Shown piece after piece: positions 5,511 through 32,736 of a stretch of DNA of 32,736 bases; the first letter of the stretch is position 1; the number at the start of each line of letters is the position of its first letter. A program made the position numbers and the translations under genes. Origin of the DNA: Candidatus Poribacteria bacterium (lineage in GTDB: Bacteria > Poribacteria > WGA-4E > WGA-3G); the NCBI GenBank assembly GCA_022822085.1, contig JAJECK010000087.1, positions 1 to 32,736 of the forward strand, in the 5' to 3' direction. A model generated the notes under the pieces. The model ran no database searches, was not told the origin of the DNA, and saw nothing but the letters and a program-made list of their open reading frames with translations.

Positions 5511-5545
5511 ACAGGCTGATGCTTTTGCAGCGCGAGCCTGTTTTT
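5511..5545 (+). terminator. Rho-independent terminator of the sHSP cluster
   Basis: ACAGGCT (5511-5517) pairs with AGCCTGT (5535-5541), followed by a T-run. It lies 34 bp after the third sHSP stop and just before the convergent aquaporin gene. Confidence 0.65.
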
Positions 5546-5548
5546 CAT

Positions 5549-6193
5549 TTAACTATCCTTGTCTTCTGCCATCCCAAGATAGAGCAATGCAGCAAGTACT
5601 GCGCCAACACACGGACCAACAAAGTACAGCCATAAGTCAGCATAATTACCTGCAGCGATTGCAGGTCCCAACGTCCGTGCAGGATTGAGTGAAGCACGTG
5701 TCAAAGGGCCACCCATCAAGATGCAAAACACTAAAGTTAACCCGATGGCGAGTCCAGCAAAGTTCCCTGCTTTTCCACTTACAACAGTATTGAAAATCGT
5801 ATTGACGAGAAAGAATGTTAGGACGATTTCTACGAAGAGACCTTGTGTTACCGATACATTCTCCGCCAATATAGTAACCCCTAAATCTCCATCTATAGGC
5901 AGCACTGCCTTTAACATCAATGCCCCAGCAATACCACCAGCAAACTGAACAATCCAGTATCCAATGGCTACACCAAATCGAATTTCACCTGCTATCAAGA
6001 GCCCGAACGTCACAGCAGGGTTAATATGTGTGCCTGAGATATGTCCGTAGGCATACGCAAACGCCACAATGACCAACCCGTGGGCAAGTGCCACGCCTAC
6101 TAATCCTCCTTGATCGATTGCTAACGCACCTGCACCGATAAAGATTAGCGCGAAGGTGCCGACAAATTCTGCGACGAAATTCTGTGTTTTCAT
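5549..6193 (-). CDS. Aquaporin / MIP-family channel with TIP-like filter
   Basis: A 214-residue six-helix channel with both NPA boxes: HINPAVTFG (NPA at 58-60) and SLNPARTLGP (NPA at 170-172). Aligned by fixed distance to the NPA boxes of E. coli AqpZ (F43, H174, T183, R189), the aromatic/arginine filter is H38, I158, A167 and R173. This differs from AqpZ (F-H-T-R) and GlpF (W-G-F-R) and equals the pattern of plant tonoplast intrinsic proteins (H-I-A/G-R). Several TIPs pass ammonia, urea or peroxide as well as water. The protein lies in the inner membrane. ATG 6193 follows AAGGAGA (6209-6203). It is convergent with the sHSP cluster. MIP-family membership is certain; substrate is inferred from the filter. 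Confidence 0.92.
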   Translation of the reverse strand: MKTQNFVAEFVGTFALIFIGAGALAIDQGGLVGVALAHGLVIVAFAYAYGHISGTHINPAVTFGLLIAGEIRFGVAIGYWIVQFAGGIAGALMLKAVLPIDGDLGVTILAENVSVTQGLFVEIVLTFFLVNTIFNTVVSGKAGNFAGLAIGLTLVFCILMGGPLTRASLNPARTLGPAIAAGNYADLWLYFVGPCVGAVLAALLYLGMAEDKDS

Positions 6194-6214
6194 AAGATTC
6201 TATCTCCTTACTAT

Positions 6215-6223
6215 GTTATACCA
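6215..6223 (-). promoter_or_regulatory. Possible extended -10 for aquaporin at the MITE junction
   Basis: On the minus strand TGGTATAAC fits the extended -10 pattern TGnTATAAT. The TGG and first TA come from the terminal repeat of the MITE and the rest from flanking DNA. No clear -35 box is seen. Confidence 0.35.
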
Positions 6224-6252
6224 TTTCTAAATGACATATTGCCATAATCAAC

Positions 6253-6326
6253 TGTAGGTCGGGTAGAGGAACGAAACCCGACAAGAACAAAGACGTGTCG
6301 GGTTTCGTTCCTCTACCCGACCTACA
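6253..6326. repeat. GGGTAGAG/CCCGAC hairpin repeat, copy 1
   Basis: A perfect 31-bp inverted repeat (arms 6253-6283 and 6296-6326) with a 12-nt loop. The core reads GGTCGGGTAGAGGAACGAAA. Related copies occur at 14048-14124 and 22221-22292, all in intergenic DNA. Confidence 0.85.
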
Positions 6327-6362
6327 AATAATGCTATTGTCTGCTGAAGGGGCATTTCTTCC

Positions 6363-6425
6363 TGTCCGAACGAGCTTTTGCTCACGACATTGGGTGGACG
6401 GTCGCGAGCGAAGCTCGCTCGGACA
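6363..6425. repeat. TGTCCGA/TCGGACA imperfect palindrome
   Basis: TGTCCGAACGAGC at the left and GCTCGCTCGGACA at the right are near-perfect inverted copies. Each arm carries its own small GAGC/GCTC hairpin. This is the second palindromic module inside the MITE-like element. Confidence 0.6.
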
Positions 6426-9341: not shown

Positions 9342-10058
9342 TCAAAACTGCGACCTGACTCCAAGTCCAATTGCAGTTCCATCTAATATAATTTTTAGTG
9401 GGGGAGTTCCAGTGGTTTCTACAGTTTTCAGGATCCGTTTAAATTCAAGATTGAAAGAAAGGTTATTGGCAATAGATGAACGAGTGTTATGCTGTGATTG
9501 CCACGCGAACAACTCTAATCCGACAATAACATAACCTGTAGTACTTGCCCCACTATCTGAAATCATAATTCCTTGTTCTTCCAACAAATCTACCATATTG
9601 CCTTCAAAATTTGCTCTTAAGAGTCCAACGCCTGCACCGAAATATATCGGTAGATATTGATAAAGCAACACTGGACGATATATCAGTTGGTAGGAGATTG
9701 GTGTTAGAGTTGTTGTGATAGAAAGTGATGTAGGTGCTGGTGTTTGAAGTTCTGTGCGCCAATATCCAATTTCAAAACGAGAATCAAGTTCTGGTCTGTG
9801 CTGGAGAACAATAGATAATGTTGGCATGAGTGCCACAGGTGTTTTGGATATACCCACATTCTGTAGGACACTGTTCAAATCACCTAATTTCGGTTTGTAT
9901 GAATAGATTGCAAATTGAAGTGATGAAGAGTTGATATTTTGATTAAACAATCTATGCAAGAACGGAGCGGGGTATGACTCTTGCTCCTCAGCTGAATACA
10001 CCGATGATGATGCGGTAAGAACACATAGGAGAAAAAGAAATACAAACAGATTGCGCAT
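9342..10058 (-). CDS. Secreted outer-membrane beta-barrel protein, family unrecognised
   Basis: A 238-residue protein with a clear signal peptide (MRNLFVFLFLLCVLTASSS, cleavage near VYS-A). It has alternating hydrophobic strands through its length and a C-terminal Phe (VRSQF), the usual signal for BAM-mediated insertion. ATG 10058 is preferred because the signal peptide begins there. The frame also allows a TTG at 10076, adding six residues that make a poor signal N-terminus. The pattern YRPVLLYQYLPIYFGAGVGLL looks like strands of an eight-stranded, OmpW- or opacity-type barrel. No specific family or ligand is recognised. It sits upstream of and close to the O-antigen ligase-like gene. Confidence 0.7.
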   Translation of the reverse strand: MRNLFVFLFLLCVLTASSSVYSAEEQESYPAPFLHRLFNQNINSSSLQFAIYSYKPKLGDLNSVLQNVGISKTPVALMPTLSIVLQHRPELDSRFEIGYWRTELQTPAPTSLSITTTLTPISYQLIYRPVLLYQYLPIYFGAGVGLLRANFEGNMVDLLEEQGIMISDSGASTTGYVIVGLELFAWQSQHNTRSSIANNLSFNLEFKRILKTVETTGTPPLKIILDGTAIGLGVRSQF

Positions 10059-10105
10059 AAGAAAAATATCACCCAAGAATGATTTTTCAAAACAGCAGAT
10101 TAATG

Positions 10106-10144
10106 TGATAAAAAGTTAGGATGTCCGAATTGGGACATCCTAAC
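10106..10144 (-). terminator. Rho-independent terminator of the OmpA lipoprotein gene
   Basis: A perfect 12-bp stem, GTTAGGATGTCC (10115-10126) with GGACATCCTAAC (10133-10144) and a 6-nt loop, followed on the minus strand by TTTTTA. It lies 41 bp beyond the OmpA stop and separates it from the beta-barrel gene. Confidence 0.85.
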
Positions 10145-10185
10145 GATACTGGACAGAAAATCGTGGTACGAACACAAGGATCATT

Positions 10186-11061
10186 TTACATCATGGAACC
10201 GGCTGGCGTGAGAATAACTTCTACACGACGATTCATCGCTCTACCTGCAGAAGTGTTCTGTGGGGCAACTGGATCTGTGTGTGCTTTACCAACAGCCTTG
10301 ACTCTTGCCGCGTCAATCCCTTTACTTTTAAGATACTTTGCTGCCGCATTTGCACGTGCTTGTGACAGATCCCAATTGCTTTGATATCCACCACGTAGGA
10401 CAGGTGTGCCATCGGCATGACCAACGACAAGTATCTCTGCCTCTGGATTTTCCATTATCTGACCGACTACACCGTCAAGCATCTCTTTTGATTTTGCAGA
10501 CAAACTTGTCTGTCCACTGGAAAAGTTGACTGTAACCAAGAGTGTCGGTTTAGATGCTACATCATCTTTAAGTATAGACAGTTGTTCTAAGATAGAAGCA
10601 ATCTGTGCCGTAACTTTCTGCAAGTCCATTCCCTGTGCCTTCTGACTATTGGCAAGGTCAGAAACCATTTTCTGGAGCTTGGCATCTTCGGCTTTGGCAA
10701 AATCATTCGCTTTTTTACCTGCCATATCAAGGTCTTTAGAATGTTCGGCGCGAAGTTTTGCAATTTCTTCTTTAGTGTTTTGCTTTGCGGCTGCGATTGT
10801 GTCAGCATCTCCTTGCTGCGAGGCAGCTATTGCCTCATCTTTTGCTTCAGAGATCGCCTCCATATTCGCCTTGTTGTTCTGATCAACCTTTCCTTCAAGT
10901 TTTGTAATATTTGCTTTAATTTCTGTCGTGGATTGGTCGATCTGAGCAACATGCTCATTCTTCCACATTTCAAACTCTTTTTGGTCTAATTTGCCGCACC
11001 CAATGACGGCAACACTCATTACCAATAGAGCTGCAACAAAAAGTGTTCCTCTGGTTTTCAT
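10186..11061 (-). CDS. OmpA-family peptidoglycan-binding lipoprotein
   Basis: A 291-residue protein in three parts. Residues 1-21 are a lipoprotein signal (VAVIGC lipobox, acylated Cys22). Residues about 25-165 form a long Ala/Lys/Glu-rich coiled coil resembling Lpp-like rods. Residues about 175-285 form an OmpA C-terminal domain (VNFSSGQTSLS, VVGHADGTPV, NWDLSQARA, MNRRVEV) with the Asp and Arg that bind diaminopimelate of peptidoglycan. It should tether the outer membrane to the cell wall with a coiled-coil spacer, as Pal does with a shorter linker. GGAGGAATTCC directly before ATG 11061 predicts strong expression. It is monocistronic with its own terminator. The coiled-coil length makes it longer than Pal (about 170 residues). 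Confidence 0.92.
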   Translation of the reverse strand: MKTRGTLFVAALLVMSVAVIGCGKLDQKEFEMWKNEHVAQIDQSTTEIKANITKLEGKVDQNNKANMEAISEAKDEAIAASQQGDADTIAAAKQNTKEEIAKLRAEHSKDLDMAGKKANDFAKAEDAKLQKMVSDLANSQKAQGMDLQKVTAQIASILEQLSILKDDVASKPTLLVTVNFSSGQTSLSAKSKEMLDGVVGQIMENPEAEILVVGHADGTPVLRGGYQSNWDLSQARANAAAKYLKSKGIDAARVKAVGKAHTDPVAPQNTSAGRAMNRRVEVILTPAGSMM

Positions 11062-22220: not shown

Positions 22221-22292
22221 GTTGGGTAGAGGCACGAAACCCGACATGATAACCACAATCAATACAGGTCGGGTTTCGTGCCTCTACCCGAC
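22221..22292. repeat. GGGTAGAG/CCCGAC hairpin repeat, copy 3
   Basis: Arms 22221-22245 and 22268-22292 (25 bp) are inverted copies with one mismatch. The core is GGGTAGAGGCACGAAACCCG, of the same family as 6253-6326 and 14048-14124. It lies about 160 bp upstream of the first sigma-factor gene. Confidence 0.8.
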
Positions 22293-22393
22293 CTACGGAA
22301 GAATGGTCCATCGGAATTATTTATTCACATCCCTCATCTATAATTGAAGATTTCTACCTCGATTTTACAATTTTTCTCAAGTTATGCACCCTT

Positions 22394-22421
22394 TTCACCT
22401 TCAAATTGTATCATGTATAAT
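22394..22421 (+). promoter_or_regulatory. Promoter of the first sigma-factor gene
   Basis: TTCACC (22394-22399), a 16-bp spacer and TATAAT (22416-22421). The block TTGTATCATGTATA and the upstream TATGCA/TTTTCACCT are conserved before the second sigma gene (30448-30475), which supports a real, shared promoter. Confidence 0.6.
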
Positions 22422-22450: not shown

Positions 22451-24004
22451 ATGAAAAATGACGATGTTGAATTAGTTCACAACATTTTGTCCGGCGACGG
22501 TACAGCATTTAGTACCTTAGTCGAAAAATACCAAAAGAATGTTCACGCGATGGCGTGGCAGAGAATTGGGGACTTTCATATTGCCGAAGAAATTACCCAA
22601 GATGTCTTCCTACAGGCTTATGATAAACTCGCTACGCTAAAAGACCCGAATAAGTTTTCAAGATGGCTTTATGTAATTGCCAAACGGCGTTGTACACGCT
22701 GGCTCCAAAGAGAAAAGCCTACAATGCTATTATCTTTAGACGACACCGATGAAGCAACCTTAGATAAATCCGCTTTTGCACATTATGATGCAGAGCAGCG
22801 TGAGGAGAAAGCAGCAGAGCAGTACCGCGAAATTGTTGAAAATCTTTTGGAAAAACTACCTGAGAACCAACGTACAGTGGTGGTGCTCTATTACCTTCGC
22901 GAAATGACATCCGAAGCAATTAGCAAATTTCTGGGTGTCCCTATCAACACGATTAAGAGTAGACTCAGACGTGCACGACAACGTTTGAAGGAGGAAGAAT
23001 TGATGGTTTGTGAAACTCTTGGTAGCATCCAGCCGCCTATTGACTTAACCGATCAGATATTTTGTGATAGTATGGAATTCAAAGCGGACACACCATATTT
23101 TCAAGACGAGTGTCCAGAATATACAGGACCGCAAACCGTGAAAGCATTGATGCATGCCTTTGACACCGAGTTTGACCGTAGTATTGTAAAAATCACCGTG
23201 GGTATAAATGGAGGCAAATCAAGCAGTCTCACCATTAATGAGATAGATAAACGGTATCCACGGACAAAGTGGCTTCAACTGATTTTGGATAATGGACTTA
23301 CTATAGAAAACTTTATGCATTATGCATCATGTTTGTCTAAGCGGCATATTTTGGCTTTTTTAGAAGACAATCCAGACTTCCAAAAAGTAAATTTTTTCGG
23401 TATACCCGCTCAAGATGACTGGCACAAGTATAAAAAGACTTTTCTCAGTAGGATTATTGCTAATGAGAAAATAGTTAGAGAACAAGATAAACAGAGGCAA
23501 ATATTTTGTGATAGCATGGAATTCAATGCGGACACACCATATTTTCAAGACGAGTGTCCAGAGTATACAGGACCGCAAACCGTGAAAGCATTGATGCATG
23601 CCTTTGACACTGAGTTTGACCATAGTATTGCAAAAATCACCGTGGGTATAGTTGGAGGTAGATCAAGCAGTCTTGCACTTAATGAAATAGATAAACGGTA
23701 TCCACGGACAGAGTGGCTTCAACTGATTTTGGATAATGGACTTACCATAGAAAACTTTATGCATTATGCATCTTGTCTGTCTAAGCGGCATATTTTGGCT
23801 TTTTTAGAAGACAATCCAGACTTTCAAAAAGTAGATTTTTTCGGTATACCCGCTCAAGATGACTGGAACAAGTATAAAAAGACTTTTCTCAGTAAGATTA
23901 TAGCCAATGAGAAAATGGTTAGAAAACAAGATAAACAGAAGCATAAAGATGAGGTAACTGCAGACTCGGGCAACAGAATGACTGAGACAATACAATTAAC
24001 GTGA
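22451..24004 (+). CDS. ECF-type sigma factor with two tandem copies of an unknown C-terminal domain
   Basis: A 517-residue protein. Residues about 1-90 are sigma-70 region 2 (HIAEEITQDVFLQAYDKL, FSRWLYVIAKRR). Residues about 128-180 are region 4 (LPENQRTVVVLYYLREM, then the helix-turn-helix with INTIKSRLRRARQRL). From 203 it carries a 148-residue unit twice (203-350, 351-498), nearly identical, ending in a short polar tail. Conserved pieces are FCDSMEF, YTGPQTVKALM, KITVGI, RYPRT, WLQLILDNGLTIE and CLSKRHILAFLEDNPDF. The unit has no signal or membrane segment and is neither the SnoaL-like nor the TPR extension known from some ECF groups; I do not recognise it. ATG 22451 follows GGAGG. The frame opens upstream at a TTG (22436) that overlaps the ribosome-binding site. 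No anti-sigma gene adjoins; permease genes follow. Confidence 0.88.
   Translation: MKNDDVELVHNILSGDGTAFSTLVEKYQKNVHAMAWQRIGDFHIAEEITQDVFLQAYDKLATLKDPNKFSRWLYVIAKRRCTRWLQREKPTMLLSLDDTDEATLDKSAFAHYDAEQREEKAAEQYREIVENLLEKLPENQRTVVVLYYLREMTSEAISKFLGVPINTIKSRLRRARQRLKEEELMVCETLGSIQPPIDLTDQIFCDSMEFKADTPYFQDECPEYTGPQTVKALMHAFDTEFDRSIVKITVGINGGKSSSLTINEIDKRYPRTKWLQLILDNGLTIENFMHYASCLSKRHILAFLEDNPDFQKVNFFGIPAQDDWHKYKKTFLSRIIANEKIVREQDKQRQIFCDSMEFNADTPYFQDECPEYTGPQTVKALMHAFDTEFDHSIAKITVGIVGGRSSSLALNEIDKRYPRTEWLQLILDNGLTIENFMHYASCLSKRHILAFLEDNPDFQKVDFFGIPAQDDWNKYKKTFLSKIIANEKMVRKQDKQKHKDEVTADSGNRMTETIQLT
23057..23500 (+). repeat. Intragenic tandem repeat, unit 1 (444 bp)
   Basis: First unit of a 444-bp (148-codon) in-frame tandem duplication in the sigma-factor gene, beginning at the codon for Ile203. 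The equivalent single block in the second sigma gene begins near 31108. Confidence 0.9.
23501..23944 (+). repeat. Intragenic tandem repeat, unit 2 (444 bp)
   Basis: Second unit, aligned to the first without gaps. It differs by scattered substitutions, many of them silent, which indicates a recent duplication under selection to keep the protein. Confidence 0.9.
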
Positions 24005-24156
24005 GCTCGATAAAAGCAATTTTGGAAACTGTGCGGTTTCCTGCCCAAATGCCTTATGCGTATTCGTCGTTGATTCCCTAAGCATTTGTGCTACTGGCAG
24101 AACCCGTGTGATATTCTGCATTGGTTAGAAACTGCATTATCATTATCGCTGCAATC

Positions 24157-24165
24157 TGTTACAAT
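24157..24165 (+). promoter_or_regulatory. Possible extended -10 before the first permease
   Basis: TG-T-TACAAT in the gap between the sigma gene and the first permease. The DNA just after it (AATAGCA, then AAATACAGGTTTT) is conserved before the fifth permease at 31634-31660, though the -10 itself is weaker there. No -35 box is clear. Confidence 0.35.
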
Positions 24166-24230
24166 AGCATTCGAAAATACAGGTTTTATAAATCATGAGG
24201 CAGTTTTACTTGATATATGGAGAATGTTAA

Positions 24231-25640
24231 ATGTTACGAACACTAATTCGAAAAGAGATGATGCATCATATCCTGAGCGTTAGATTCATTGTCCTGCTGC
24301 TGATGTGTCTGTTACTTGTTCCACTTACCCTTTCTATCAATTATCAAAATTACCGTCAGAACCTCTTTGACTATCAAGAAGCGGTTAAACTGGCAAACAT
24401 TGAAGAAACCAAGGTAAACCCGACTGCGCCTCTGGAACCAGAGGTTGAGGTTTCCAAACTCTTCCTCAAACCGGCCCCGCTGAGTGTCTTTGTAAATGGA
24501 TTAGGGGACATACTCCCGAGCTACCTTGGCATGACTCGCAATGGTGTCACACAAGGCCCACCCGCACTGGCTTCCGCTTCACTCTCCTATTTGCTGGGAC
24601 ACCTTGACTTTCTTTTTCTTGTCGGCACTGTTTTTAGTCTGCTCGCGCTCTTGTTTACTTTTGATGCAGTTGCTGGGGAAAGAGAAGCAGGCACACTCCG
24701 GATAACTTTGGCGAACGCCCTCCCACGAGACCTATTTCTTTGGAGCAAATTGATCGGTGGTTACATCGTGTTTATCGTTCCATTTATTGTCTCATTCTTA
24801 TTTGGTTTGCTGTTGTTAGTCTCGCAAGGATTCCCGTTGGGCGAGTCGGAGATTTTTCCACGAGTCCTTAGTCTAACACTTGTTTCGTTGATCTACATCG
24901 CAGTCTTTTTCGCGATAGGTACAGTGATTACCACCTATTTAGACAATTCCAAAACAGCACTAATCGTTGCCTTTACCGTGTGGGTGTTTGCTGTTCTGAT
25001 TACGCCACGCGTTGGGTTTCTCGCAGCCAAACTTATCGCTCCAACACGAACTTCACAAAGCGTCTATATGGAAAAAACTGCAATGCGAGGGGATTTTGAG
25101 GCAGAAGTCGAAAAACAGCAAGGAAAGTTCATAGACGAGATAGCCTCTGTGGATGAAGATGGCATAATCAGAATAGATGGGGAAAGTGCGAAGAGAATTG
25201 ATGAGCGTATGAAACTTGTTGAGGAGGAATATCGACTGAGATTCCATAACCGATCGAATAAGCTTGACCGAGATTATAAACGTGAAACAGAGCAACAAGA
25301 ACAGGTAGCTCAGATGCTTTCCCGAATCACACCCACATCTTCCCTTATCTACCTCGCTACGAACTTAACGCAGACTGGGAAAGCAAAAAGAAGCAACTAT
25401 TTTCAAATGGGGGACCGCTATTATGATATGCTCCATACAGATTTGTTCAGCAAAATATCGAATCACGTTTTCAACAGAGCTATCTACCCAGGCGTGGTAG
25501 TAACACAACCGCCAGATTTAGAAACTTCAACCTTAGGCGACACATTCCGTGAATCCTTAGCGGATGTGCTGCTGCTCTGCTTCTTCGCAGTCGTGTTGAC
25601 AACAGTGGCATTCCTGAAATTTTTCCGCTCCGATATCTGA
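24231..25640 (+). CDS. ABC-2-like membrane permease, paralogue 1
   Basis: A 469-residue protein with six predicted helices: about 18-36, 126-146, 173-197, 211-235, 240-259 and 445-465. A short cytoplasmic start (LIRKEMMHHILSVRF) precedes helix 1. The motif FDAVAGEREAGTLRITL (144-160), after helix 2, is the cytoplasmic coupling segment typical of ABC-2 export permeases such as NosY and GldF. Two large soluble loops (37-125 and 260-444, the latter with coiled-coil-like charged helices) should lie outside the membrane. TGGAGA precedes ATG 24231. It follows the sigma gene by 226 bp. An ATPase subunit is expected for this family but is absent from the window. Substrate is unknown. Confidence 0.85.
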   Translation: MLRTLIRKEMMHHILSVRFIVLLLMCLLLVPLTLSINYQNYRQNLFDYQEAVKLANIEETKVNPTAPLEPEVEVSKLFLKPAPLSVFVNGLGDILPSYLGMTRNGVTQGPPALASASLSYLLGHLDFLFLVGTVFSLLALLFTFDAVAGEREAGTLRITLANALPRDLFLWSKLIGGYIVFIVPFIVSFLFGLLLLVSQGFPLGESEIFPRVLSLTLVSLIYIAVFFAIGTVITTYLDNSKTALIVAFTVWVFAVLITPRVGFLAAKLIAPTRTSQSVYMEKTAMRGDFEAEVEKQQGKFIDEIASVDEDGIIRIDGESAKRIDERMKLVEEEYRLRFHNRSNKLDRDYKRETEQQEQVAQMLSRITPTSSLIYLATNLTQTGKAKRSNYFQMGDRYYDMLHTDLFSKISNHVFNRAIYPGVVVTQPPDLETSTLGDTFRESLADVLLLCFFAVVLTTVAFLKFFRSDI

Positions 25641-25720
25641 CACAGCAAATTGTAATAAAACATAGCAATTTCAAAGTACATAATGCGCAATAGATGCAAC
25701 TTTTTTCGAATTCATTTGTA
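25641..25720 (+). repeat. Conserved 80-bp block after permease 1
   Basis: Directly after the permease 1 stop, this block matches 27216-27295 after permease 2 at 78 of 80 positions. It includes CAAATTG/CAATTTC inverted pieces and ends in a T-run before TTCATTTGTA. It is non-coding and precedes the next permease gene in both places. Confidence 0.85.
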
Positions 25721-25790
25721 ATAACTGTTGAAAACAACCATCGCATGAGATCACACAAATTAAACAAATGCAAAATAAAGGAAATTCAAC

Positions 25791-27215
25791 ATGTTAATGA
25801 CACTGATTCAAAAAGAGATGATGCATCATATCCTAAGCGTTCGGTTTGTCGCATTGCTTTTGATGTGTCTGCTGCTTGTTCCGCTTACCCTGCACATTAA
25901 TTATCGCAATTACCTCCAAAACCAGATAAATTACCAGGAATCAGTCAAACTTTCTGGATCAGAAGATGAGGAAAAGCCACCGGATGCCCCAGCTCCGGAC
26001 CTGGAAGTTTCTAAACTCTTTCTTGAACCGACGCCTTTAAGCGTGTTTGCGAAAGGTTTAGAGGAATCCCTTCCGAGTTATCTTGGCATGACACGCAATG
26101 GCGTAAAACAAGGTTCAACTTCAACCGCAGATGCCCCGCTCTCCTCCGCTTTGGGAAACCTTGATTTCCTGTTTGTCGTCAGTACTGTCTTTAGTTTGCT
26201 GGCATTATTGTTTACGTTTGATGCCGTTGCAGGCGAAAGAGAGGCAGGCACACTTCGGATTACCTTGGCAAACGCACTCTCCCGCGATCTGTTTTTGTGG
26301 AGCAAACTAATCGGCGGATACATTGTTTTCGTTGTTCCGTTCCTTGTATCTTTCCTCTTAGGTTTGCTCCTACTTGTATCACAAGGATACCCTTTAGGTG
26401 AGTCTGACATTTTCCTACGCGTGCTCAGTTTGACAATTGTTTCGTTGCTCTACATAGGTGTATTTTTTGCAATAGGAACAGTAATTTCTACCTATTTAGA
26501 AAATTCCAAAACAGCACTCATTGTCGCCTTTACAGTCTGGGTACTTGCAGTATTAATTACGCCACGCGTTGGATTTCTAACCGCTAAACTCATTGCACCG
26601 ACGCGTGCTGTGCAAAGTGTCTATATGGAAAAAACTGCAATCCACAATAATCTCAATGCAGAAAAGGATGCAATAGTCGTAAAAAAAATTATTGAAAGTT
26701 CTTTAGGTACTTCAATTGACTTTAATAAGGATGCTGCTAAAATCGCTGAAATCAGAGAACCGATTGATGCTGAATATAGACAGAAATTTCAGGAACAGGT
26801 TAAAAAAGTGGACCGTGAATATCAGCGTGAAAAAAAGCGGCAAGAATCGGTAGGAGAATCCATTTCACGAATCACACCGACATCTTCGCTCACATATCTT
26901 ATCATGAATTTAGCAGAGACCGGAAAAATAAAAAGAAACGCCTATTTTCAAACGGGCACTCGTTATTATACCCAGCTTGAAGAGGAATATTTTAGAGGAA
27001 TTTCAGACGATCAGTTTGCGACAATAATGCGATCCATACAATCCTTAGCAGATCGATCTTCAGAATCAAAGAAAATCGCTCCGCCGCCAGACATCACAAA
27101 AACCACTTTACCAGAAACTCTTCGTCACTCTGTCACAGATATACTCTTGCTCTGCTTCTTTGCAGTGGCGTTGACAACAGTGGCGTTCTTGAAATTCTTC
27201 CGTTCCGATATCTGA
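25791..27215 (+). CDS. ABC-2-like membrane permease, paralogue 2
   Basis: A 474-residue paralogue of the preceding gene with the same six-helix plan. It has LIQKEMMHHILSVRF before helix 1, FDAVAGEREAGTLRITL after helix 2, and the FLKFFRSDI end shared with paralogue 1. The transmembrane parts are strongly alike. The second outer loop (about 275-440) is the most divergent part, as expected if it contacts different ligands or partners. AAAGGA precedes ATG 25791. It lies 150 bp after paralogue 1 and is followed by the near-identical 80-bp non-coding block. It probably arose by tandem duplication, and the two may form a heterodimer; that is inference. Confidence 0.85.
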   Translation: MLMTLIQKEMMHHILSVRFVALLLMCLLLVPLTLHINYRNYLQNQINYQESVKLSGSEDEEKPPDAPAPDLEVSKLFLEPTPLSVFAKGLEESLPSYLGMTRNGVKQGSTSTADAPLSSALGNLDFLFVVSTVFSLLALLFTFDAVAGEREAGTLRITLANALSRDLFLWSKLIGGYIVFVVPFLVSFLLGLLLLVSQGYPLGESDIFLRVLSLTIVSLLYIGVFFAIGTVISTYLENSKTALIVAFTVWVLAVLITPRVGFLTAKLIAPTRAVQSVYMEKTAIHNNLNAEKDAIVVKKIIESSLGTSIDFNKDAAKIAEIREPIDAEYRQKFQEQVKKVDREYQREKKRQESVGESISRITPTSSLTYLIMNLAETGKIKRNAYFQTGTRYYTQLEEEYFRGISDDQFATIMRSIQSLADRSSESKKIAPPPDITKTTLPETLRHSVTDILLLCFFAVALTTVAFLKFFRSDI

Positions 27216-27295
27216 CACAGCAAATTGTAATAAAACATAACAATTTCAAAGTACATAATGCGCAATAGATGCAACTTTTTTCGGATTCATTTGTA
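27216..27295 (+). repeat. Conserved 80-bp block after permease 2
   Basis: Second copy of the block at 25641-25720, with two mismatches. It directly follows the permease 2 stop and precedes permease 3. Confidence 0.85.
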
Positions 27296-27379
27296 GTAGG
27301 TATTAAAACCTTCTATTCTAAGAAATCACACAAGTTAATCAGATGGAAAGAATAATGGTAAACTTGTTGAGAGGAAAAC

Positions 27380-28888
27380 ATGATGTTAACAACCCTCATT
27401 CGCCGAGAACTACTTGACAACCTAATGACATTCCGATTTGTAGTGGTGTTTATCATTATGTTGTTGCTTGTTGTTGTAAATACATCTGTGTTGATTAAGG
27501 ATTATGATCGCCGGTTAGCAAGTTATAATTCTGCTGTTAAATCGAATCACGATCAATTGCTAGGAACAAGAACCTATTCTAGTGGTAGTTTTGCTGTTGT
27601 CCGTCCACCTAATTTATTGAGTATATTCAATGCTGGCTTGGATAAACGGTTGAGTAACGAAATTTTTGTATCTTACAGTTTTGTGCCCACATTGTGGGAT
27701 GGTCAGGTGCATGGATCAACGAATCCACTTCTGAATCTCTTCTCATCGATTGATATTGTCTTTATCTTTGAAGTAGTTCTGAGCCTAATGTCACTTATTT
27801 TTGCTTACGATGCACTTGCGGGAGAACGTGAGCGCGGTACATTACGTCTTGTCCTAACACATCCGGTGAGTCGTGGTAAAATCTTATTGGCGAAATACAT
27901 TAGTGCAATGATATGTTTGCTGGTACCACTTTTGATAAGTCTTCTCTTGGTTGTGATTTTACTTACCACATCGACTATTGTATCACTAAAGGTTGATGAT
28001 TTTCTTCGTATTGGTGGCATTGTATTGAGTTCAATTGCGTATCTGTCGGCATTTTACTTCATAGGTATGTTGATTTCCGTAATAACTCGAAGAACAAGCA
28101 CTGCGTTAATGCTTGCGATGTTTGTCTGGGGGTTTTTGGTGTTGGTATATCCGAATGTGATTCTTGTTAGGATTACTCCTGCGCAGCCTTCCCAAGAGCG
28201 TCTGGCATCCGCTTTTAATCAAATTGAACAGATATGGGATGAATTCGAGAGAGAACGTAAGGACTTTCTTGCCAATGATCCTATCCCGGGAGAAGAGTCG
28301 CATTTCGGCATGCAAGGCGGCTCAGGTTTATTCGAGACATGGTATAAAGATAAGTCATCACTTCTATTCTCCTATGTTGCAGCTTCATACATAAATAAAC
28401 TTGATGATGAATTTGAACCTCAGGTGCCGCATGTTCAGAACTATTACCGTTTCATCATACCGAGGAAGATTGACGCTGCAGAACGAACATGGCTCGTGCG
28501 AAAACAGGCACTGGAATCTGTTTACTTTCGACCAGCGATAGTTGATCGTATCTTTTTGAGGCTTTCGCCAGTCGGGATGTATGATGCTGCGACGCAAGCG
28601 TGGGCAGGTACAGACTTGATCGGACTCAGAGATTTTTACGAAGCTACGCGAAAGTATCGAAGGACTGTGATTGACTATTTTTACGATAAAAACGCTTTTG
28701 AGGATCGCAAATGGTTTTCTCCTGACAAAGGGTCAGTGGATTGGAATAGTTTACCTCAGTTTTCTTTTCAGAGAAGTAGTGTGCATATAAATGCGATGCG
28801 AGCATTACCGGATTTACTCCTGCTGCTAATGATAAACGTTATTCTCTTTTTGGTAATATTTTCGGTTTTCCAAAAAAGTGAAGTATAG
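27380..28888 (+). CDS. ABC-2-like membrane permease, paralogue 3
   Basis: A 502-residue, more distant member of the same family: LIRRELLDNLMTFRF before helix 1, then YDALAGERERGTLRLVL after helix 2, four further central and C-terminal helices, and a large second outer loop (about 265-475) with EFERERKDF-type charged helices. The outer-loop sequences are unlike those of paralogues 1 and 2, but the coupling motif, helix order and loop sizes agree. GAGAGGA precedes ATG 27380; Met2 is an equivalent start. It lies 164 bp after paralogue 2 on the same strand. No nucleotide-binding domain is encoded. Substrate is unknown. Confidence 0.82.
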   Translation: MMLTTLIRRELLDNLMTFRFVVVFIIMLLLVVVNTSVLIKDYDRRLASYNSAVKSNHDQLLGTRTYSSGSFAVVRPPNLLSIFNAGLDKRLSNEIFVSYSFVPTLWDGQVHGSTNPLLNLFSSIDIVFIFEVVLSLMSLIFAYDALAGERERGTLRLVLTHPVSRGKILLAKYISAMICLLVPLLISLLLVVILLTTSTIVSLKVDDFLRIGGIVLSSIAYLSAFYFIGMLISVITRRTSTALMLAMFVWGFLVLVYPNVILVRITPAQPSQERLASAFNQIEQIWDEFERERKDFLANDPIPGEESHFGMQGGSGLFETWYKDKSSLLFSYVAASYINKLDDEFEPQVPHVQNYYRFIIPRKIDAAERTWLVRKQALESVYFRPAIVDRIFLRLSPVGMYDAATQAWAGTDLIGLRDFYEATRKYRRTVIDYFYDKNAFEDRKWFSPDKGSVDWNSLPQFSFQRSSVHINAMRALPDLLLLLMINVILFLVIFSVFQKSEV

Positions 28889-28892
28889 GGTA

Positions 28893-28971
28893 GCTGTCGG
28901 CTGTCAGCAGTCTATTGTTGACAAGAATAGGCTGTAACAAACAACTGAAAACTTATAACTGAGGACTGAGA
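28893..28971. repeat. GCTGTCGGCTGTCAGC spacer sequence
   Basis: The gap between permeases 3 and 4 begins with a short direct repeat of GCTGTC and ends with AACTGA/ACTGAGGACTGA-like repeats. Similar low-complexity spacers are, from memory, common in poribacterial and cyanobacterial genomes. There is one copy here. Confidence 0.4.
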
Positions 28972-28972
28972 T

Positions 28973-30379
28973 ATGATTTGGCATATTACAAAACGCGAAC
29001 TGTATGACAACCTTAATAGCCTACGATTTGCCCTTGCGACTGTGTTAATACTCGTGTTGATGTTGATTAATGCCGTTATCCATGTCCAGGAACATCCTGT
29101 GCGTATGCAGAAATATCATGATGCTACCACAAAATCTCTGAATACTTTAAAATCTCGGACAGATTTATTTAGCATTGCCCAAGAAGGACCAGGAAATCTT
29201 TACAAAAAGCCGTCTCCACTCTATTTTTGTGCAGAAGGAGGGGACATCTTTTTGTCAGATTATGCCTACGGCATACATAGGGTTCAGATCGCCAATAATT
29301 TAAGGGCTTTCTGGTCGTTGTATTATCCCGGCGCGTTTCCTAATATATTCAATATACGTCCGGATACTGTCAAAGTAGACTGGGGATTTGTAATCGGGTA
29401 TGTTCTGAGTCTGATAGCAATTCTGTTTACCTTTGATTCCATTTCCAGTGAACGTGAACGCGGTACGCTCCGATTGATGTTGTCTAATTCAGTGCCACGA
29501 CACACTGTATTGATTGGCAAATTTTTAGGGGCATTAGTAAGTATTAGCATTCCGTTTACTCTTGCGATATTGATGAATCTATTGGTAATTTCTACGTCCA
29601 GAGACATTGATCTTGGTGCAGATGTGTGGATACGTTTATGTATTATTTTCATTATTGCGATTTTGTACCTATGTCTGTTTATTGCGTTAGGATTGTTAGT
29701 TTCGTCATCTGTGCAGAACAGTGTTGCAAGCCTTGTGATACTCCTATTGACGTGGTGTGTTTTTGTCGTATTTGTACCGAGTACTCTCGCTTCCATTGCA
29801 AGTGGTTTCTCAAACCCAATGACTTATGATGAATACTTCAAACGCCGAAACCAAAACATAAAAACCCTCAAGGAAGAATACGTTGCTCTTTTGCAAGAGA
29901 CGCGTGGGTTGCCAGATAAAAAGATACAGATAGATAGTGAGTATGTCGCCAAAGGCACTGAACAAGAGGAACGTTTATCTCAAGAACAGCTAACACAACA
30001 GATTGCCCAAATTGAATTGGCACGTTCCGTCACCCGTATCTCACCAGTTACGCTTATCCAGCATCTTCTTGAGGTTTTTGCCGGAACAGGGTTTGAACGG
30101 CATCAACAATTTTTGGAGAATGTGCAACGTTACGCTCGTGAATACCGAGAATTCGTCACGGATATGGATAGAGCAGATCCCGATAGTCTCCATATTATTG
30201 GGGTTCGTGAGGGAATGTCGAAGAAGCCTATCAGCCCAGAATCAATTCCGGCTTTTGAAGACGAATTTAGTCTCAATCATGATTTCAACGATGCAGCTAT
30301 TGATTTGTATTTGTTGATTCTGTTTTTTGTTGTTCTTATGTCAGGAACTTATCTAAGGTTTATATCCATTGAGATTTAA
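28973..30379 (+). CDS. ABC-2-like membrane permease, paralogue 4
   Basis: A 468-residue member of the permease series. ITKRELYDNLNSLRF precedes helix 1, FDSISSERERGTLRLML follows helix 2, and the last helix ends YLRFISIEI. The first outer loop is about 90 residues, the second about 170 with a Gln/Glu-rich helical stretch. It is closest in its N-terminal motif to paralogue 3. GAGGA lies 9 nt before ATG 28973. It is followed by a small hairpin and then the promoter of the second sigma gene, so the first transcription block probably ends here. Confidence 0.82.
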   Translation: MIWHITKRELYDNLNSLRFALATVLILVLMLINAVIHVQEHPVRMQKYHDATTKSLNTLKSRTDLFSIAQEGPGNLYKKPSPLYFCAEGGDIFLSDYAYGIHRVQIANNLRAFWSLYYPGAFPNIFNIRPDTVKVDWGFVIGYVLSLIAILFTFDSISSERERGTLRLMLSNSVPRHTVLIGKFLGALVSISIPFTLAILMNLLVISTSRDIDLGADVWIRLCIIFIIAILYLCLFIALGLLVSSSVQNSVASLVILLLTWCVFVVFVPSTLASIASGFSNPMTYDEYFKRRNQNIKTLKEEYVALLQETRGLPDKKIQIDSEYVAKGTEQEERLSQEQLTQQIAQIELARSVTRISPVTLIQHLLEVFAGTGFERHQQFLENVQRYAREYREFVTDMDRADPDSLHIIGVREGMSKKPISPESIPAFEDEFSLNHDFNDAAIDLYLLILFFVVLMSGTYLRFISIEI

Positions 30380-30393
30380 TCATGATAGACAAT

Positions 30394-30409
30394 GAAAACT
30401 GAAGTTTTC
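30394..30409 (+). terminator. Small hairpin after permease 4
   Basis: GAAAAC-TGAA-GTTTTC, a perfect 6-bp stem with a four-base loop, 15 bp after the stop. It has only a weak T-rich tail, so termination is uncertain. Confidence 0.35.
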
Positions 30410-30447
30410 TTCTATGATTCTACATTTTTTTCAAGCTATGCAACATT

Positions 30448-30475
30448 TTCACCTGAATATTGTATCATGTATAGT
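30448..30475 (+). promoter_or_regulatory. Promoter of the second sigma-factor gene
   Basis: TTCACC (30448-30453), a 16-bp spacer and TATAGT (30470-30475), matching the first sigma gene's promoter in both boxes, spacing and the spacer core TTGTATCATG. The agreement extends upstream through TATGCA. Confidence 0.6.
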
Positions 30476-30504
30476 CAAAAGTACATTTGTTGTGGAGAAC
30501 TATG

Positions 30505-31617
30505 ATGATTAAAAACGATGCTGAACTTGTTAACAGTACTTTGTCCGGAGACGAAACAGCCTTCACTCTCTTAGTTCAGAAATACGAAAAGAGTATTCAC
30601 GCTATCGTGTGGCGGAGGATCAAGGATTATCACATCGCCGAAGAAATTACACAAGATGTCTTCCTACAGGCTTACAATAAACTGTCTACGCTAAAAGATC
30701 CGAATAAGTTTGGCAGATGGCTATATGTAATTACGAAGCAGTTTTGTACAAAATGGCTCCAGAAGCAAAAACCTACAATGCTATCCTTAGATGCCGTTGA
30801 TACAGCAACCTTAGAGAAATCCGATTTTGCACATTATACCGCAGAACAACATGAGAAGAAGGCGACAGAGCAGTACAAAGAAATTGTTAATGATCTTTTG
30901 GAGAAATTACCTGATAACCAACGTACAGTAGTGGTACTCTATTACCTACATGAAATGAAATACAAAGCAATCAGCAAATTGCTGGAAGTACCTATCAACA
31001 CGATTAAGAGTAGAATCAGTCGTGCACGACAACGATTGCAGGAGGAAGAACTGATGATTTGCGAAACTCTTGGTAGCATTGAACCCCCTATTGACTTAAC
31101 CAATCATGTGTTCTGTGACAGCATGGAATTCAAAGCCGGCACACCATATTTTGACGACGAGCATACAGTATATACCGGTCCGCAAACCGTGAAAGCTTTG
31201 ATGAGTACCTTTGACACGGACTTTGACAGTAGTATTATAAAAATCACGGTCGGTATAGTTGAAGGTAAATCAAGTAGTCTCCCAATTGGTGAGATAGATA
31301 AACGGTTTCCTCGGACACAGTGGCTTCAACTGATTTTGGATAATGGACTTACCATAGAAGACTTTATGCATTATGCATCTTGTTTGTCTAAGCGGCATAT
31401 TTTGGCTTTTTTAGAAGACAATCCAGACTTCCAAAAAGTAAATTTTTTCGGTATACCACCCATTCAAGATGACTGGGAAAAGTATAAAACGGCTTTTGTC
31501 AGGGACATTATTGCCACTGAGAAAGAGGTTAGAGAACAAGATAAACAGGGCCATAAAGATGAGGTTGCAGACTCCGCATTAAAAACGGCGTTGGCACATT
31601 TAAAATCTTGTCCGTAG
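30505..31617 (+). CDS. ECF-type sigma factor with one copy of the unknown C-terminal domain
   Basis: A 370-residue paralogue of the sigma factor at 22451. Region 2 (HIAEEITQDVFLQAYNKL) and region 4 (LPDNQRTVVVLYYLHEM, INTIKSRISRARQRL) are intact. They are followed by a single copy of the unknown domain (about 202-350) with YTGPQTVKALM, KITVGI, LQLILDNGLTIE and CLSKRHILAFLEDNPDF, then a different short tail. Compared with the first gene it has one extra residue in the IPPIQDDW segment. ATG 30505 aligns with the first gene's start; ATG 30502 is possible. The frame opens upstream at a TTG that overlaps the GGAGA ribosome-binding site. The fifth permease follows by 85 bp. No anti-sigma factor is adjacent. 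Confidence 0.87.
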   Translation: MIKNDAELVNSTLSGDETAFTLLVQKYEKSIHAIVWRRIKDYHIAEEITQDVFLQAYNKLSTLKDPNKFGRWLYVITKQFCTKWLQKQKPTMLSLDAVDTATLEKSDFAHYTAEQHEKKATEQYKEIVNDLLEKLPDNQRTVVVLYYLHEMKYKAISKLLEVPINTIKSRISRARQRLQEEELMICETLGSIEPPIDLTNHVFCDSMEFKAGTPYFDDEHTVYTGPQTVKALMSTFDTDFDSSIIKITVGIVEGKSSSLPIGEIDKRFPRTQWLQLILDNGLTIEDFMHYASCLSKRHILAFLEDNPDFQKVNFFGIPPIQDDWEKYKTAFVRDIIATEKEVREQDKQGHKDEVADSALKTALAHLKSCP

Positions 31618-31702
31618 CAACTTGAGTTATTTCAATAGCACCCGCAAATACAGGTTTTGTAAACCATGAGAGATGGTAATCCCGATATATGGAGATTGCG
31701 AA

Positions 31703-32736
31703 ATGTTACGAACACTAATTCGAAAAGAGATGATGCATCATATCCTGAGCGTTCGATTTATTGTACTGCTGCTGATGTGTCTGTTACTTGTTCCACTTAC
31801 CCTTTCTATCAACTATCGAAACTATCGCCAAAACTTAGTAGACTATCAAGAAGCCGTTAAACTGGCAAATATTGAAGAAAAGACAGTAAACCCGAAGATG
31901 CCGCTGGAACCGGAGATTGAGGTTTCTAAACTCTTTCTCAAACCAACGCCTTTGAGTGTGTTTGCAAACGGATTAGGAGACGCGCTGCCAAGTTACCTTG
32001 GTATGACCCGTAATGGGATTATTCAAGGAGTTCCATCTTTGGTTTCGGATTCCCTTTCCTATCTTTTCGGACATCTTGACTTTCTTTTTCTCGTAGGCAC
32101 TGTTTTCAGCTTGCTCGCACTGCTATTTACCTTTGATGCAGTTGCCGGAGAGCGAGAAGCGGGTACCCTTCGGGTTACCTTAGCGAATTCTCTGCCGCGT
32201 GACCTCTTTCTGTGGAGTAAATTAATTGGCGGATATATTGTGTTCGTAGTGCCGTTTTTGGTATCCTTTCTATTCGGCTTATTGGTACTTGTTTGGCAAG
32301 GTTTTCCCCTCGGTGAACCCGAAATGTTTCCTCGGGTGTTCAGTCTAACTCTCGTCTCGCTGCTCTATATTGCGGTCTTCTTTGCGATAGGGACAGTCAT
32401 TTCAACCTACTTAGATAATTCCAAGACTGCACTCATCGTCGCCTTTACGGTTTGGGTGTTTGCCGTGCTGATTACGCCGCGCGTCGGATTTATCACGGCG
32501 AAATTCATCGCGCCAACGCGCACATCACAGAGTGTCTATCTGGAAAAGACGGCTCTCCGTGAGAATTTCAATGCAGAACTTGAAGAGAAAAAAAGGGAAA
32601 TACACAAAGAACTCTGGAAGGATCGTCGGCAACCTCCCTACGAAGAAGTGGATGAACGGATGAAACCTCTTGAAGAGGAATTTCGGCAGAAATTCAAAGA
32701 GCACACTGATGAAATAGATCGAAACTATCAGCGTGA
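31703..32736 (+). CDS. ABC-2-like membrane permease, paralogue 5 (cut by window end)
   Basis: The open frame from ATG 31703 (GGAGA upstream) runs 344 codons to the window edge without a stop. It begins MLRTLIRKEMMHHILSVRFI, identical at the start to paralogue 1, and contains FDAVAGEREAGTLRVTL, the central helices, and the start of the second outer loop (ending near EIDRNYQR). It is clearly the closest relative of paralogue 1, and both directly follow a sigma gene. Upstream DNA (AAATACAGGTTTT and GATATATGGAGA) is also conserved between the two. About 125 residues and the last helix are missing to the right. Confidence 0.85.
   Translation, partial: MLRTLIRKEMMHHILSVRFIVLLLMCLLLVPLTLSINYRNYRQNLVDYQEAVKLANIEEKTVNPKMPLEPEIEVSKLFLKPTPLSVFANGLGDALPSYLGMTRNGIIQGVPSLVSDSLSYLFGHLDFLFLVGTVFSLLALLFTFDAVAGEREAGTLRVTLANSLPRDLFLWSKLIGGYIVFVVPFLVSFLFGLLVLVWQGFPLGEPEMFPRVFSLTLVSLLYIAVFFAIGTVISTYLDNSKTALIVAFTVWVFAVLITPRVGFITAKFIAPTRTSQSVYLEKTALRENFNAELEEKKREIHKELWKDRRQPPYEEVDERMKPLEEEFRQKFKEHTDEIDRNYQR

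Follow-up and report, generated by a model that had tools for sequence, protein, structure and literature searches.

Two ECF sigma genes with a common C-terminal domain lie among five ABC-2 permease ORFs at the right end of a Candidatus Poribacteria contig. The locus raises the question of how such sigma factors are controlled when no anti-sigma gene lies beside them, and what ties them to the neighboring permeases. The window analyzed here, 32,736 bp in length, is the complete contig C108 of a 5.6 Mb genome that is 96% complete and whose closest relatives are named Candidatus Poribacteria MAGs; these relatives are sponge-associated. The left two thirds of the window contain ordinary genes, including those for a sulfatase, an O-antigen ligase, OmpA, a peptidase, an oxidoreductase, and RecN-like, NAD kinase and VCA0040-like proteins. 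The two sigma genes and five permease ORFs are all on the + strand, and their presence, described in a first-pass annotation, is borne out by Pfam matches to sigma regions 2 and 4 and to PF12679. The features, with promoters as predicted, are as follows.

22383..22419, + strand: ECF-type promoter of sigma1, TATGCACCC-N17-TATCATGTATA, 25.1 bits against the family model
22451..24004, + strand: sigma1, ECF sigma factor fused to two tandem domain copies (PF04542, PF08281, PF04545); fusion kept in relatives
23057..23494, + strand: sigma1 C-terminal domain copy A, from the domain profile and alignment
23501..23938, + strand: sigma1 C-terminal domain copy B, an in-frame tandem duplicate, 90-91% identical to copy A in protein
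24231..25640, + strand: ABC-2 permease 1 (PF12679, E=1e-29)
25791..27215, + strand: ABC-2 permease 2, paralogue of permease 1 (65%; E=1.2e-33)
27380..28888, + strand: ABC-2 permease 3, distant paralogue (Pfam: PF12679, DUF3526)
28973..30379, + strand: ABC-2 permease 4, distant paralogue (Pfam: PF12679, DUF3526)
30437..30473, + strand: ECF-type promoter of sigma2, TATGCAACA-N17-TATCATGTATA, 23.1 bits; also matched by the strict genome search
30505..31617, + strand: sigma2, ECF sigma factor fused to one domain copy (Pfam; AlphaFold model confident for the sigma part)
31108..31548, + strand: sigma2 C-terminal domain, modelled alone (pLDDT 86.1, pTM 0.83)
31703..32736, + strand: ABC-2 permease 5, incomplete at the contig end, 77% to permease 1

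The likely start codons are the ATG at 22451 for sigma1 and 30505 (or 30502) for sigma2, each preceded by a GGAG(G) ribosome-binding site. Pfam places region 2 of sigma1 at 22517-22717, and region 4 is also present. The contig end at 32736 falls inside permease 5. Contig C142, which carries in order a permease C-terminus (matching residues 356-469 of permease 1), a sixth permease, an ABC ATPase, a NEW3 protein and OEP, is a plausible continuation of C108, and no overlap was found on comparing the contig ends. Upstream DNA is shared by sigma1 and sigma2 (about 110 bp), by permeases 2 and 3 (214 bp, 86%), and by permeases 1 and 5 (85% over 134 bp across the start), a pair whose similarity had been recognized from the outset. 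Terminators between the window genes are as numerous as chance predicts. A palindromic repeat with arms TGTCGGGTTTCGTGCCTCTACCC is present at 22224-22289 and 6261-6318 in the window, with a matching arm in locus L008.

Both sigma genes are predicted to encode ECF sigma factors: regions 2 and 4 are recognized above cut-off by PF04542, PF08281 and PF04545 and a region 3 domain is absent, in keeping with the ECF definition, the TIGR02937 superfamily model also scores above its cut-off, and SigW in the PDB matches at E=1e-22. No transmembrane helix is found in either protein, which would place the fused domain in the cytoplasm; a membrane-bound, protease-released sigma factor is ruled out for both on the same ground, and any envelope sensing, as first proposed, would have to be indirect. 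The two proteins do share one type of C-terminal domain, but sigma2 carries a single copy and sigma1 two in tandem, a correction to the first-pass annotation. The sigma1 copies are 93% identical in DNA over 444 bp, with a dN/dS of 0.24 between them, and a tandem of this kind would fit a gain in affinity or avidity.

At about 130 residues, the C-terminal domain defines a genuine family. Of 85 genomes from the Poribacteria phylum, 62 contain it, and it has neither a Pfam match nor a sequence match in the PDB. The model of the domain alone, built from 90 aligned relatives, is confident and mainly helical with a few strands. One Tyr and one Arg of the domain (Y89 and R96 of alignment A5) are invariant. 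The PDB contains no clear structural relative of this model; the best Foldseek match has E=0.84 and the best VIA-align match, to a designed protein, has Z=3.8. These values are too weak to assign a known fold, and novelty of the fold is not proven. In the full-length AlphaFold model of sigma2 the sigma part is confident, most of the fused domain is of low confidence, and no confident interface joins them, such that structure prediction was informative for the isolated domain but not for its contact with the sigma regions. Outside the sigma clade the domain usually belongs to proteins that begin with a hydrophobic signal or signal peptide, in many cases followed by a coiled coil; a few family members have no signal.

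The genomic context of these unfused proteins points to an exporter. All five window permeases match PF12679, with about six membrane helices (permease 5 being incomplete), and are predicted to be ABC-2 permeases. Three further paralogues do lie between permeases 1 and 5, although they are not all equally related, with permeases 1, 2 and 5 being close (65-77%) and permeases 3 and 4 distant (23-33%). The unfused, signal-peptide form of the domain protein adjoins permease-1-type genes in genomes G001, G003, G005 and G017, and G018 and G021, which belong to a different genus, show the same adjacency. In three other genera the domain protein is located just before genes for an ABC ATPase, a NEW3 protein and a TolC-like protein (OEP); this order is seen in G020 and G021 and, with a few genes' distance, in G019 and G022. 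The neighborhood search thus places the domain next to permeases of these types outside the window genome as well, even in a genus that lacks the sigma fusion.

The fullest array, in locus L071, lies on one strand and begins with a domain protein, four permeases and two small proteins, and continues with a sigma-domain gene, three permeases, ABC, NEW3 and OEP. In both L071 and L081 of the relatives the ABC ATPase, NEW3 and TolC-like genes belong to the same array, and since in our genome these genes lie beyond the window, the earlier description of a self-contained system is not quite right. We read this stretch of genes as the regulatory and permease portion of an ABC export island in Poribacteria. 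The array resembles Gld-type (GldA/GldF) and DrrA-like ABC-2 exporters in that its ATPase matches the drrA and GldA models and GldF gives weak matches to permeases 3 and 4, but the ATPase scores fall far below the curated cut-offs, the permeases reach 31-35 bits against a cut-off of 288.5 for the GldF equivalog TIGR03518, and the array differs in having a TolC-like gene and many permease paralogues. In L081 (G016) a permease-5-type gene downstream of the sigma-domain gene (9750-10357, + strand) is split into two frames, and a relic of a sigma start is retained before a permease-3-type gene.

The sigma-domain fusion is represented by ten non-identical genes in eight genomes of one genus, sigma1 and sigma2 included, and these loci are related by descent rather than being independent cases. 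In the sigma tree they form a single clade (97/80) whose sister group is made up of sigma factors that carry beta/gamma-crystallin-like domains (joint clade 100/99). Sigma1 and sigma2 fall in two separate branches of the sigma-domain clade, and their duplication therefore predates the divergence of these species. Within the domain phylogeny the fused copies sit on a long stem nested in the exporter-linked clade (96/94); the island proteins L049/L073 are placed close to them, with weak support (81/80). Given this nesting, the simplest history would be that a sigma factor took up the domain of an adjacent exporter gene. The sister group includes ECF sigma genes with one or two crystallin-like domains at L033:5047-6396, L075:13725-14579 and L116:1552-2913 (all + strand), which have the same promoter variant (for L116 from sequence only).

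A domain acquired in this manner could be a passenger of fusion with the neighboring exporter gene, the sigma factor being regulated only through transcription and autoregulation. In L090 a sigma-domain gene occupies the usual domain-gene position, after YjeF and SP136, as local fusion would give, and in G005 a crystallin-type sigma gene fills the array slot held elsewhere by a sigma-domain gene, such that closely related paralogues in one slot have different C-terminal domains and the exporter domain is not indispensable. However, dN/dS between orthologues is 0.10-0.25 for the sigma part and 0.20-0.51 for the domain, indicating purifying selection on both, the fusion is maintained across the eight genomes, and the tandem copy has been retained in frame. 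We regard a passenger role as improbable.

No anti-sigma gene lies adjacent, as initially noted: a genome-wide search for the zf-HC2 type finds none on C108 and none beside the fused sigma genes, and none is recognized in the syntenic loci of relatives. The genome does have six zf-HC2 anti-sigma genes, every one of them beside an unfused sigma gene of about 180-225 residues. The window sigmas thus have the features of ECF factors with a C-terminal extension, the extension being conserved and no anti-sigma gene adjacent (zf-HC2 type in the genome-wide search). The restriction of zf-HC2 genes to unfused partners supports, although it does not prove, the proposal that the anti-sigma function has passed to the fused domains. 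The first-pass annotation had offered either the fused domain or the permease loops as the substitute; the domain is the natural candidate, whereas no evidence was found for the loops and they were dropped.

Of the 52 sigma-family upstream regions, 46 contain a two-box motif with the consensus TATGCAACC, 16-17 bases, CGTCATTATA, in most cases 66-81 bases ahead of the start; the motif is read as predicted autoregulation of an ECF family. A shuffled window is expected to yield 0.2 sites of at least 18 bits; the sigma1 promoter has 25.1 bits. At this threshold the motif is found in 42 of 74 sigma upstream regions versus 2 of 410 for other genes. Because the model was trained on the same sigma upstream regions, fixed patterns were used as a check. 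The strict pattern TGCAMC-N17/18-CGTCAYTA has ten matches in the genome, nine of them before sigma-family genes, and the reversed-pattern control has none. The predicted ECF-type variant of sigma1 and sigma2, TATGCAMC-N17-TATCATGTATA, matches three times in 5.6 Mb, each time before this sigma clade. Across 24 genomes it has 14 matches, with 12 before sigma genes (one a decayed copy) and two before permease-3-type genes; a further permease-3-type promoter, in L081 (G016), came from the model scan, and promoters of this type may be remnants left by a sigma gene that has disappeared, as in L081. The L024 sigma gene has no motif of its own, and the gene upstream of it has one at 24.6 bits.

The case for direct sigma control of the export genes is weaker than that for autoregulation. 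Outside the sigma genes the motif is only modestly enriched, standing before 4 of 40 domain genes (Fisher p=0.0007), 2 of 61 permeases (p=0.08) and 1 of 7 ABC genes (p=0.05). Neither the model scan nor the pattern search places a strict promoter before a window permease, so their expression would require read-through or other promoters, for which the intergenic gaps, reaching 227 bp, offer enough space. The scarcity of strict copies before permeases, together with the composition of the arrays from duplicated units, could mean that the export genes are outside sigma control, with the adjacency reflecting repeat-driven clustering and the regulon lying elsewhere. We think this improbable too, since the domain family is linked to exporters in genera that do not have the fusion, and related sites do occur before a permease in L079, an ABC gene in L071 and three domain genes in L076.

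The reading we favor, tentatively and at somewhat less than even probability, is that these are autoregulated ECF factors in which an exporter-derived fused domain replaces the anti-sigma factor and senses the state of the exporter or its cargo. Each sigma factor would transcribe its own gene, generating positive feedback, and the downstream permeases would be transcribed by read-through or from related promoters. The cytoplasmic domain would restrain or license the sigma factor by binding either cargo that accumulates in the cell or the cytoplasmic face of the exporter, with the outcome that export capacity is tuned to need. Because the sigma factors carry an exporter-linked domain and sit in an exporter array, such a switch probably reads the exporter or cargo directly. 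Exported homologues act outside the cytoplasm, however, and their function may therefore not carry over to the fused copy.

The domain could instead be a docking module that holds the sigma factor against the cytoplasmic face of an exporter subunit, or against another protein with the same domain, until exporter activity releases it, with neither a small ligand nor cargo being sensed. Protein interaction has been proposed as the mechanism of ECF42 and ECF57 (PMC8999054), the domain and permease-1-type genes remain neighbors in two genera, and the two tandem copies of sigma1 would suit avidity. Against this, the unfused homologues carry signal peptides, which should place their partner faces outside the cytoplasm, and we consider docking possible but unlikely.

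Like ECF41, ECF42 and ECF57 (PMC8999054), the window sigmas combine regions 2 and 4 with a soluble C-terminal domain and no adjacent anti-sigma, but they differ in domain content, the extension being not SnoaL, TPR or WD40 but an exporter-linked domain common in the phylum and doubled in sigma1. The sole SnoaL match in the window sigmas is 17.7 bits against a cut-off of 28.4 and is located in the sigma part, and Pfam finds neither TPR nor WD40 in them. In ECF52 (SCO4117) and ECF243 (IutY) the extension is membrane-anchored (PMC8999054), unlike in the window sigmas, which have no transmembrane helix. For ECF257 the neighbors are ABC transporters and AAA ATPases and the mechanism is given as unknown (PMC8999054); going by that group description, the window sigmas are similar in having a sigma gene beside ABC transporter genes, although PMC8999054 mentions no fused exporter domain for ECF257.

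The wider sigma family has about 42 full-length members in this genome. About 30 of these paralogues share the one-protein design of ECF52 and ECF243, with a transmembrane helix near residue 220-250 after the sigma part and, in many, a long beta-propeller-like region following; these long genes (L002, L003, L004, L008, L009 and others) frequently form tandem arrays and lie at contig ends. Other members carry WD40, TPR-like, crystallin, sliding-clamp or peptidase domains. At L019:4332-7163 (+ strand) an ECF sigma is joined to a WD40-like propeller and an S9 prolyl oligopeptidase domain, and at L013:4632-5639 (+ strand) one carries the N-terminal domain from a DNA sliding clamp as a fusion, with the rest of the clamp in an overlapping ORF in another frame (5545-6372); the genome has two more clamp genes. 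Among the members of a second ECF family are sigma-FtsZ fusions, which relatives have conserved. Of the two ECF-FtsZ fusions at L031:6340-8100 (+ strand) and L007:1814-3055 (- strand), one has both FtsZ domains and the other the GTPase domain only. Matches that cover both the sigma and FtsZ parts in one frame extend to most genomes of this genus and to further genera within the family, where a separate FtsZ is also present.

It is conceivable, albeit rather doubtful, that these fusions reflect a general Poribacterial design in which an ECF factor carries, by fusion, a copy of some component of the cell machine it monitors. The exporter-linked domain, FtsZ and the DNA sliding clamp would be such parts, transcription would follow the state of the machine, and many of these sigma factors would be under one self-activating promoter type.

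What is new relative to known fused ECF factors is a domain shared with the neighboring exporter, together with its tandem form. We found no description of Poribacterial sigma fusions in the literature searched, and the locus reveals how extensively fused ECF sigma factors that share a self-promoter have radiated in this uncultured, sponge-associated phylum. Within it, a regulator and its probable machine are joined by one shared domain, which provides a testable case of export control without an anti-sigma factor.
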